From Campylobacteraceae bacterium (lineage in GTDB: Bacteria; Campylobacterota; Campylobacteria; Campylobacterales; Campylobacteraceae): a stretch of 41,560 nt of DNA. Below, in pieces: positions 14,043 through 26,243 of this stretch; the stretch's first letter is position 1; every line of letters begins with the position of its first letter. Location of the stretch: the NCBI GenBank assembly GCA_031270285.1, contig JAISXY010000093.1, positions 1-41,560 on the forward strand, in the 5' to 3' direction. The translations under genes were made by a program, and so were the position numbers. The notes under the pieces are model-generated. The model was not told where the DNA came from. It saw only the letters and a list, made by a program, of their open reading frames with translations, and searched no databases.

Positions 14043-15867
14043 ATGTCAGTACATGTTTCTAACGCTTTAACGCGTTGTTCAAGGTCGTTTGAGACTAATT
14101 CCATTGTTTCAGATTTGTTTAAGTTTAAAGCCTTCTCTCTCTCTCTCTCTTAGTAGATTAAGCAAATTTTTAGTTTTCCTGATTGTTCCGTTTTTGTTTA
14201 TTAATTGCGGTGGCGGCGGAGGCGGCGGAGGCGGAGACCAAACTCCATCCTACAAGGTTTCGTTCTACGATAGCAACCTTGATCTGTTGGCAAGTTTTGA
14301 TTTGCGACATGAAGTCAATCAAGCCGATCTGGATTCAAACGCAACCACACACAGCGTTAGCGGTTGGTATCAAAAAGAGAGCGCAACAGCAGAAACAGCT
14401 TTCTCTACGACGCTTAATAGCGATATTAATTTCTACGCTCTGCCAAATGTTCATGAGATAACCGATCAAACGGAATTAAACGCCGTTAGAAACGATTTAA
14501 GCGGCAAATATATTTTGCTAAACGATATAGCGTTAAGCGATAGCGGCGCTGGCGTTGATACTACTAACGGTTGGAATCCAATCGGCGAAAGTCCAAATCT
14601 CTTTACAGGTTTATTTAACGGAAACAACCATGAGATAACCAATCTGTGGATCAACAGAGCTGGCGCTAATTACATTGGTCTATTTGGTCGTATCAGCGGC
14701 GCTAATATCAGAAACTTAGGCGTTGAGATACCAGCTGGCAAAGAGGTAAAAGGGCAAGGCTCTGTCGGCGGTATCGCTGGAATTGTTTATTACGGCTCGA
14801 CCATATCAAATAGCTACGCCGCAGGAAGCGTTAGCGGAACAGACTCAGTCGGCGGTATCGCTGGATATGTTAGCAGCTCGACCATATCAAACAGCTATGC
14901 CGAAGGAAACATTAGCGGAAGAGATCTTGTCGGCGGTATCGCTGGAGATGTTTATAACAGCTCTATATCAAACAGCTACTCCACAGGAAGCATTAATGGA
15001 TCATACTATGTCGGCGGTATCGCTGGATATGTTAGCAGCTCGACCATATCAAACAGCTATGCCGAAGGAAACATTAGCGGAACAAACTATGTCGGCGGTA
15101 TCGCAGGATATGTTCATGACAACTCTATATCAAACAGCTACGCCGAAGGAAACATTAGCGGATATTACTATGTCGGCGGTATCGCCGGACATGTTGAAAG
15201 CGGCTCTATAACCAATAGCTACGCCGCAGGAAGCGTTAGCGGAATAAACAACTATGTCGGCGGTATCGCTGGATTTGCTTACAACGCGATCATATCAAAT
15301 AGCAACGCCGCAGGAAGCGTTAACGGAACAAACTATGTTGGCGGTGTTGCTGGAAAAGTTGAAAACAGCTCGAACATATCAAATAGCTACTCCATAGGAA
15401 ACATTAGCGGAAAATACCATGTCGGCGGTATCGCCGGACATGTTGAAAGCAGCTCTATAACCAATAGCTATGCCGCAGGAAGCGTTAGCGGAATAAACAA
15501 CTTTGTCGGCGGTATCGCTGGATATATTTATAGTAGCGGTACGATCCGAAATAACGCCGCTATTAACCCGTCCGTTACGGCGGCAGGTGGTAACGATAAA
15601 AATCGAGTGGTTGGTTATATCAGCGGCACAAATACTGTTACAAACAACTTCGCGCTAAGTACAATGCAAGGAACTTTCAGCGGCGGTAATGGCGGAACTT
15701 CTAAAACCATTGGCGAGTTAAAAACGCAATCAACTTATAGCGCCGCTATAAATGGCGACGGAGCTGGCGGTCTTGGTTGGAAATTTGGCGGAAGCGTGGC
15801 AAGCCCTTGGAAAATAGAAGCAAGCAAAAACAACGGCTTGCCGTATCTTTATTGGCAAGAGCTGTAA
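14043..15867 (+). CDS. GLUG-repeat surface lipoprotein, out of frame at a (CT)8 tract (phase OFF)
   Basis: The best start is ATG 14043, 6 nt after AAAGGGG. From there the frame runs 36 codons into a (CT)8 tract and stops at TAG 14151. The long open frame (to TAA 15867) is in the +1 register; one more CT unit, or two fewer, would join them into a 608-residue protein. Read that way it has an N-terminal Ser/Leu stretch from the repeat, a hydrophobic core and the lipobox-like FLFINC (Cys56), a run of nine Gly, an InlB-B/Flg_new-like region (YKVSFYDSN...GWYQKES...INFYA), ten GLUG repeats and a C-terminal LPYLYWQEL. GLUG repeats occur in large secreted or surface adhesin-like proteins. In the present register, translation would need TTG 14089, which has only a weak AAGG. 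Codon choice (AAC, GGC, AGC) differs from neighbours, suggesting transfer. Confidence 0.75.
14135..14150 (+). repeat. (CT)8 dinucleotide repeat, contingency tract
   Basis: Sixteen nucleotides of CT lie within codons 31-36 of the frame that opens at ATG 14043 and end directly at TAG 14151. Gain or loss of units shifts the frame, so the tract can switch the lipoprotein on and off by slipped-strand mispairing. Confidence 0.85.
14764..15534 (+). repeat. Ten tandem GLUG-motif repeats (81/84-nt period)
   Basis: Copies of the VGGIAG core begin at about 14764, 14848, 14929, 15010, 15091, 15172, 15256, 15337, 15421 and 15505, so the period is 81 or 84 nt (27-28 residues). A typical unit reads VGGIAGYVSSSTISNSYAEG plus NISG. 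Copies 2 and 4 are identical over about 70 nt, and copies 6 and 9 with their downstream neighbours differ by only a few bases over about 100 nt, indicating recent internal duplication. Confidence 0.88.
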
Positions 15868-20297: not shown

Positions 20298-20372
<75 letters not shown>

Positions 20373-21066: not shown

Positions 21067-21204
21067 TTTGTCGCTCCTTTGTGAAATCTATCTGAATTGT
21101 ACATTTTTTAAGCTAAATTTTTCATTTTATATTTTAAAAACTAATAGCTCATAATAAGTTTTTTTGTGGTAAAGTTCTTTTTAAAAATCGTAAAAAGGTC
21201 AAAA

Positions 21205-23182
21205 ATGACAAATAAAAATAAAGCCTCGTTCGGGGGGGGGGGGGGGGGGAAAAGCCGCTCTTCTTGAAAACGGCAAAAAAGAAGCAAACAGCGAATTTTT
21301 AGATACTCTCAAAAACTATTTCCCGCAATTTTTTGAAAAAGACCTTTACGACGAAGATGGAAATCTTGTCAAAAACGGCAGTTTTAAAACGGATAAATTT
21401 TTAGATGAACTTAAAAACGGTAATGTTTCAGAATCGCGCGATGGATACAAACTTAGCTTTGTGGGCAAGGATTACGCAAAATTGCAAACGGGACGCGCTT
21501 CAGAGACAGTAATTGTCCCCGACTGCAAACATAACGGCGAACCTGAAAACAAAAACAGCGGTAATGTATTTATAACAGGCGATAATTTGGAAGCTCTGCG
21601 CCACTTGCAAAACGCTTACACAAATAAAATCAAAATGATTTATATAGACCCACCGTACAATACGGGAAGCGGGGATTTTACATATTCGGACAAGTTTGAG
21701 TTTGGCGACGAAAAGTTAAAAAATGCGCTTGGTTATAGTGATAATGAAATTGCGCGGCTCAAATCCATTCAAGGCAAAAGTTCTCACAGCGCATGGCTGA
21801 CATTCATGTATCCGCGTCTTAAAATCGCACAGAAACTTTTGAGAGATGACGGGGTAATTTTCGTAAGTATAGACGACAATGAACAGGCAAATCTGAAACT
21901 TCTCATGGATGATGTGTTTGGGGAAGGGAATTTTATAAGCAATATTATATGGGAAAAAGTTAGAATTAGAAAAAATTCAGCACTATATTTTACATCAAGT
22001 CATGATTTTATTTTATGTTATACGAAGAAAGCCAAATTAAACAAACAAGATAGTGGCTGGGAAAGAAATTTATTGGAACGAGAAAATGGTTCATATAAAA
22101 ATCCAGATAATGATCCAAATGGTGCATGGATGAAAGGTTCGGTTATTGCTAATCATTATTATGATGCAGATTATACTATTACAAAGCCAAATGGAATTGT
22201 TTTGAGTAAACCAAAAAATGCCTCATGGCGATATAGTGAAGAAAGCATAGCAGCATTTATTAAAGAAAACAGGATGTTGTGGGGAAATGATAATTCATAT
22301 CCTATGGTAAAAAAATATGAAAAAGATGCTCAAAATGGGATAGTTCCAAAAACAATAATTTCTTTTAAGGAAGTTGGAGGAAATCCGCATGCTGCTGAAG
22401 AAACAAAAGCATTATTTGATGGTTTAAAAATTTTTGACAATCCCAAACCCGTAACACTCATTAGATATTTATTAGACATCGCAACTAACAAAAATGATTT
22501 AATTCTTGACTTTTTCGCAGGCAGCGGTACAACCGCTCATGCGGTGATGCAGTTAAATGTCGAAGACGACGGAGAGCGCAAATATATCATGGTGCAATTG
22601 GACGAGCCGACAAATCCGACAAGCGAAGCCAAAAAAGCGGGCTACAATACCATAGACGAAATAGCGCGCGAACGCATAAAACGCGCCTCGCAAAAGATAA
22701 AAATCGAAGCTGGATTAAACGCGCAAAATCTTGACTTGGGATTTAAACATTTCCGCCTGAAAACTCTTGATGTTAAAACGCTTGATAAAATTATTGAGTT
22801 TGACCCAAATAATGCAAGTCTTTTTGACGAAGACATGATAACACCTTTTGGTTATCCCGACGCCAAAACAAGCGGACTTGATACGCTGCTTGCCACATGG
22901 CTTGTCAATGACGGCTTTACTTTTGATAAGCATGCGGAAGCGATAAATTTTGCAAATTATCAAGCTCATTATATAAAAGACGCCGCGATGCTTTATCTTA
23001 TCAGCCAAGATTGGGATACGAATGCACTCAAATCTCTACTTAACAAAATCGGCAAAAATGAACTTTGTGTCAATACGATAGTCGTTTATCCCTATTCGTT
23101 TTCATTTGAAGCCATGAGAGAGCTGAAAACCAATATCAAGGCAAATCTTGACAACTCCCCGACAATCATAGAGAGATACTAA
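21205..23182 (+). CDS. mod: Type III DNA methyltransferase Mod, out of frame at an 18-G tract (phase OFF)
   Basis: Mod methylates adenine-N6 at an asymmetric site and gives specificity to the Mod/Res complex. The motif order is DPPYNTGSG (motif IV), then the target-recognition region, then DFFAGSGTTAHA (SAM motif I), that is the beta class typical of type III enzymes. The start is ATG 21205 after AAAGG; nine codons later come 18 G, and with that count the frame ends at TGA 21265. The downstream frame is open from 21251 (KAALLENGKKEANSEF) to TAA 23182. Loss of one G (G17), or gain of two, restores a 658-residue protein. The segment of about 21940-22450, between the motifs, is more A+T-rich than its flanks, as in other mod genes with exchanged recognition domains. 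res follows after 1 nt. Confidence 0.85.
21232..21249 (+). repeat. Poly-G tract (18 G), phase-variation switch
   Basis: An uninterrupted run of 18 G is located 27 nt into the mod frame. Runs of this kind are classical contingency loci in Campylobacter and Helicobacter. The exact count is sensitive to sequencing error and may vary between cells. Confidence 0.9.
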
Positions 23183-26167: not shown

Positions 26168-26243
26168 GCCGGCGTAGCTCAGCTGGTAGAGCAACTGCCT
26201 TGTAAGCAGTAGGTCGGGGGTTCGAGTCCCTTTGCCGGCTCCA
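26168..26243 (+). tRNA. tRNA-Thr (TGT)
   Basis: The acceptor GCCGGCG pairs with TGCCGGC, the anticodon loop CTTGTAA holds TGT, and CCA is encoded at 26241-26243. Confidence 0.95.

Follow-up and report, generated by a model that had tools for sequence, protein, structure and literature searches.

The DNA analysed here (the window) is a 41,560-nucleotide stretch, contig JAISXY010000093.1, from a Campylobacteraceae genome of 1.50 Mb (106 contigs, 91% complete). It carries, between genes for tRNA-Asn and tRNA-Thr, a type III DNA adenine methyltransferase gene (mod) and, one nucleotide behind the mod stop codon, the gene for an intact restriction subunit (res; Table 1). The closest relatives of this mod-res pair are found in two Campylobacteraceae metagenome-assembled genomes (MAGs), JAITAB (G008) and JAIROK (G013). 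As both fall within the accession range JAIRJQ-JAITXW assigned to termite-gut MAGs (PMC11257099), the host of the window's organism is probably a termite as well, and the genus, which is uncultured, appears to come mostly or wholly from termite guts. Elsewhere in the window (14089-15867), a 592-residue open reading frame with GLUG motifs lies between gyrA and a semialdehyde dehydrogenase gene.

Table 1. Features of the mod-res site, in window coordinates.
Feature	Position	Strand	Evidence
tRNA-Asn(GTT), left border of the mod-res site	20298..20372	+	tRNA comparison
Promoter-like element ATAAGTTTTTTTGTGGTAAAGTT: T-run and extended -10-like TGGTAAAGT	21154..21176	+	identical in window, G008 and G013
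Shine-Dalgarno-like AAAGG	21194..21198	+	sequence; AAAAGG kept in G008 and G013
OFF-state frame, MTNKNKASF-Gly6-KSRSS-stop	21205..21267	+	ATG 21205, nine codons, G18, TGA 21265
Poly-G contingency tract, G18 (putative)	21232..21249	+	equivalent position: G16 in G008, G17 in G013
mod, type III DNA adenine methyltransferase, 643 residues past the tract	21251..23182	+	PF01555, 3.6e-44; T3RM_EcoP15I_C, 2.2e-26; 4zcf_A, 1.5e-97
Catalytic motif DPPY	21647..21658	+	sequence
Target recognition domain (approximate)	21940..22450	+	identity drop versus G013; G+C
AdoMet-binding motif FAGSGT	22514..22531	+	sequence
res, type III restriction subunit, intact, 950 aa	23184..26036	+	NF012027, 6.2e-304; ResIII, RE_endonuc; 4zcf_C, 1.5e-126
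tRNA-Thr(TGT), right border of the mod-res site	26168..26243	+	tRNA comparison

An out-of-frame type III mod gene

Mod matches the N6_N4_Mtase family and the EcoP15I C-terminal domain and resembles EcoP15I Mod over nearly its full length. With DPPY ahead of the target recognition domain (TRD) and the FxGxG motif behind it, the enzyme falls into the beta class, and the adjoining full-length Res, in which TGTGKT and DEPH helicase motifs are combined with an endonuclease domain, assigns the pair to type III. Both subunits align with those of EcoP15I (structure 4ZCF) over almost their entire length, a similarity that in our judgement already settles the fold of Mod and identifies the gene as a genuine EcoP15I-type type III mod. 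The likeness to EcoP15I Mod starts, however, only at residue 12 of the latter (which pairs with residue 11 after the tract in the alignment to 4zcf_A), and the aligned chain has no reported tract; the homopolymer therefore precedes the conserved Mod fold.

The G18 homopolymer sits inside the 5' end of mod, and a run scan of the window revealed no other G or C run of at least 8. Under a first-order Markov model, runs of 18 or more are expected ∼5e-9 times per window and ∼2e-7 times per genome. The initial annotation had described an ATG with an AAAGG Shine-Dalgarno sequence, followed by nine codons, the G18 tract and a TGA, and a downstream frame that is open to 23182, bears DPPY and FAGSGT and would be joined to the ATG by the loss of one G or the gain of two. 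The coordinates and frames proved exact, the register was confirmed and both motifs were located in the downstream frame. The Mod frame, which runs from 21251 to a TAA at 23180-23182, is one base off the register of ATG 21205, and its closest upstream stop (TGA 21206) overlaps this ATG. A scan for start codons from that stop to GTG 21461 found no ATG, GTG or TTG in the Mod frame, such that no start for Mod is present before or inside the tract. GTG 21461 itself was rejected as the Mod start: it has no obvious Shine-Dalgarno sequence and its use would cost ∼70 residues, most of which can be aligned to EcoP15I Mod. The Mod frame therefore lacks a usable start before the catalytic domain. The statement that the gene is switched off thus holds insofar as G18 puts it out of frame, but it describes the consensus of a single metagenome assembly, in which the homopolymer length determined from short reads is uncertain, and the population may hold mixed tract lengths. 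Upstream, ATAAGTTTTTTTGTGGTAAAGTT is retained in a leader that is otherwise poorly conserved among the window, G008 and G013, and presumably acts as the promoter.

The mod-res site in three species

In three species of the genus, represented by the window, G008 and G013, mod-res occupies one and the same place in the chromosome, and the tract falls on the same codon of mod. In the window and G013, the genes have tRNA-Asn on one side and a tRNA-Thr/Tyr/Gly cluster on the other; the two flanking contigs of G008 bear the corresponding tRNA-Asn and tRNA-Thr cluster borders, and the empty site is seen in G003, G004, G011 and G012, where tRNA-Asn and tRNA-Thr are 0.3-1.0 kb apart without mod-res. 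The tract comprises 18 G in the window and 17 G in G013, both out of frame (OFF), and 16 G in G008, which is in frame (ON) and reads MADKNKALF-Gly5-VKAALL (27 nt before the tract, then G16 and T). The G008 assembly is split exactly at this position: contig C17 ends with the nine codons, G16 and TAAA, and hence bounds the tract fully, while contig C43 starts with G16-TAAAAGCC. A simple repeat of a unit that is not a multiple of three thus sets the frame of a coding sequence, as befits a phase-variable gene, and does so differently across species, although the lengths are compared between species rather than strains and are counts from assembled MAGs with the uncertainty that homopolymers entail.

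Beyond the tract, the dN/dS ratio of mod between the window and G008 is ∼0.12 over all 643 codons, and that of res is 0.10-0.17, values indicating that purifying selection acts strongly on the sequence past the tract. The TRD departs from this conservation in the comparison with G013: its identity is 21-30%, as opposed to mostly 78-92% in the flanks, and its G+C content is 0.31 versus 0.39-0.40. Judged by this mosaic pattern, the TRD has been swapped between the window species and G013, in a typical TRD exchange. The broken frame in both the window and G013 could also be that of an ordinary pseudogene, a mod killed by a frameshift with the tract being incidental. We rejected this reading as exceedingly improbable in light of the low dN/dS, the 643 codons free of stops, the intact res and a tract that is common to three species and in frame in the G008 orthologue.

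Two termite-gut Helicobacteraceae MAGs encode Mod orthologues (59% identity in the best segment) that carry GGC GGC GGA or GGC GGA GGA, in frame and without a tract, at the corresponding place. Together with the three tract-bearing species, these orthologues suggest that the switch may have originated from a glycine-codon stretch at a dispensable N-terminus. When 199 relatives were searched for the pattern of the tract context, the match in G007 turned out to belong to a gene for polysaccharide pyruvyl transferase, in which TAAAAGC occurs by chance, and the matches outside the genus gave no mod match by tblastn. A mod 50% identical to that of the window occurs on a termite-gut MAG contig labelled Planctomycetaceae (JAIRWK010000349.1), reflecting either horizontal transfer or misbinning.

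Poly-G tracts and mismatch repair in the genus

G runs of at least 9 are present in 13 of the 14 genomes of the genus, and tracts of at least 12 G number ∼38 where 0.06 would be expected (a count that leaves out duplicates, the contig end G007:C11, and the double counting of the split G008 tract); their length distribution has a second mode at 14. Many of the tracts lie in genes for TonB receptors, OmpA and restriction-modification (R-M) systems, and others precede genes for pyruvyl transferase and F5/8-type proteins. Six TonB-dependent receptor genes (L175, L177, L181, L216, L218 and L236) have G9-G14 directly before the plug domain. Among the R-M genes, G013 has another type III mod (contig C91, L179), divergent from the first, that is OFF with G14 near its start, beside an open res frame, and a Type ISP R-M enzyme gene in G008 (contig C49, L235) is broken by G14, with long open frames in different registers on each side. 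In the source genome, the sole other poly-G of at least 9 is a G12 (G000:C6:9920-9931; L039:1921-1932, minus strand) in the signal-peptide region of a gene for an OmpA-like outer membrane protein, where it is out of frame with the ATG. Four tracts are clustered within 7.6 kb of G008 (L232, contig C38:19500-27100); F5/8 type C-like domains are encoded by two of the genes that follow them, and for one long gene Pfam gave no match.

Searches for MutS_I and MutL_C returned none of the 14 genus genomes, whereas each search recovered 11 of 14 controls; six of the genus genomes are at least 90% complete and several are incomplete, which weakens the absence for individual incomplete ones. The lack of detectable MutS1/MutL offers a plausible reason for the instability of long tracts. 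It also bears on the concern that an assembly or sequencing artefact has altered a tract whose real length is in frame, such that mod is constitutively on. The source genome is indeed a fragmented assembly, that of G008 breaks precisely at the tract, and the G007:C11 contig end (L158), with runs of G18 and G23, has the appearance of a poly-G sequencing artefact. The mod tract, however, is flanked by unique sequence on either side, and separate assemblies show it at the orthologous position; while the exact count (18 or 17) is unsecured, such a length without detectable mismatch repair would be unstable regardless. We therefore consider such an artefact very unlikely.

Phase variation of methyltransferases by poly-G has been studied mostly in mammalian pathogens, and the mod locus and the genus-wide tracts extend its reach to uncultured termite-gut bacteria; a limited literature search turned up nothing published on phase variation in Campylobacterota of termite guts. 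Evasion of adaptive immunity, the usual explanation, is inapplicable in the termite gut, and phage pressure is the natural alternative. As a tentative proposal, the long-poly-G phasome of this uncultured Campylobacteraceae genus might jointly switch phage entry points (TonB receptors and OmpA) and several restriction systems (type III and type ISP), with mod-res serving epigenetic regulation, here in a symbiont of the insect gut instead of a pathogen of mammals.

A probable poly-G switch and related systems

The tracts at the same site, the purifying selection, the TRD swap, the lack of detectable MutS1/MutL and the many poly-G tracts of the genus argue for a contingency locus as opposed to a dead gene or an assembly error. 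With the family assignment and the in-frame allele, they also lend the initial annotation's central claim, a type III mod placed out of frame by a hypermutable poly-G, good support at the level of comparative genomics, and poly-G slippage that toggles Mod ON and OFF is very probably the correct explanation as a whole. The slippage rate, switching within one population, enzyme activity and function are features that we infer. In the proposed mechanism, slipped-strand mispairing at the 5'-terminal poly-G would alter the number of G and would be left unrepaired in a genus that seems to be without MutS1/MutL mismatch repair. Out-of-frame alleles would yield no more than a short peptide, of 20 residues in the case of G18; in-frame alleles would yield full-length Mod and differ from each other in some N-terminal glycines alone. 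Since the tract lies before the conserved Mod fold, extra glycines should be tolerated and the in-frame alleles are predicted to be functional.

Type III Res acts only together with Mod, as established for EcoP15I-type enzymes. Because Res depends on Mod to recognise DNA and its gene follows directly behind mod, the OFF state should end both methylation and restriction, and the ON state should restore both. Thus, with res intact and closely coupled to mod, Res would be co-switched with Mod and restriction is probably toggled as well. The benefit likely lies in bet-hedging, with restriction of phages weighed against uptake of DNA, and gene expression may be affected secondarily. Polymerases and ribosomes alike tend to slip on long homopolymers, and transcriptional slippage or ribosomal frameshifting could in principle yield some full-length Mod at every length, with the tract merely tuning the level. 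We regard such leakiness as unlikely, as the ON/OFF state of modH5 follows tract length in a published reporter (PMC5700931).

A different question is whether the main selected effect is a change in the methylation and expression of many chromosomal genes (a phasevarion in the strict sense), with restriction being secondary. Such an effect, which the initial annotation brought in by analogy, is conceivable, if on balance doubtful: modH5 of Helicobacter pylori, with its G tract, is a precedent (PMC3230613, PMC5700931) and the TRD exchange resembles that of phasevarion mod alleles, but some modH loci have a broken res (PMC3230613), unlike the intact res here. As all three species keep an intact res on which purifying selection acts, restriction is probably maintained, and phase-variable restriction appears at least as likely as a phasevarion.

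The locus belongs with the type III mods switched by simple sequence repeats. In modA of Haemophilus and Neisseria and its relatives, N-terminal repeats of multi-base units switch type III mods; these share with the present gene the repeat in the 5' part of mod and the exchange of TRD alleles, and differ from it in that the tract here is a mononucleotide G run. The initial annotation had invoked the poly-G mod tracts known in Campylobacterota. Akin to the gene described here, modH of H. pylori (HP1522 family) is a Campylobacterota type III mod with a poly-G that sets the frame ON or OFF, exchanged TRD alleles and a neighbouring res. Its tract, however, follows the recognition domain at a distance of 104 bp (PMC5700931) and comprises ∼8-15 G (PMC3230613), as opposed to 16-18 G at codon 10, before the conserved fold, so that the precedent stands for the poly-G in mod and is loose with regard to position. 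The Campylobacter phasome (including cj0031, type IIG) likewise has coding-strand poly-G in R-M and surface genes (PMC6321876), but its tracts are mostly 9-10 G and rarely 13-15 (PMC6321876), in contrast to the second mode at 14 and the tracts of 16-18 seen here. Compared with both systems, a tract of 16-18 G is unusual in its length, subject to the uncertainty of counts taken from assemblies; this length, the N-terminal position and the host are what distinguish the locus. Poly-G switches in mod have arisen more than once, as a genome of another Campylobacteraceae genus (G020, contig C2, L021) has a different type III mod that is out of frame through a G11 tract ∼40 codons in.
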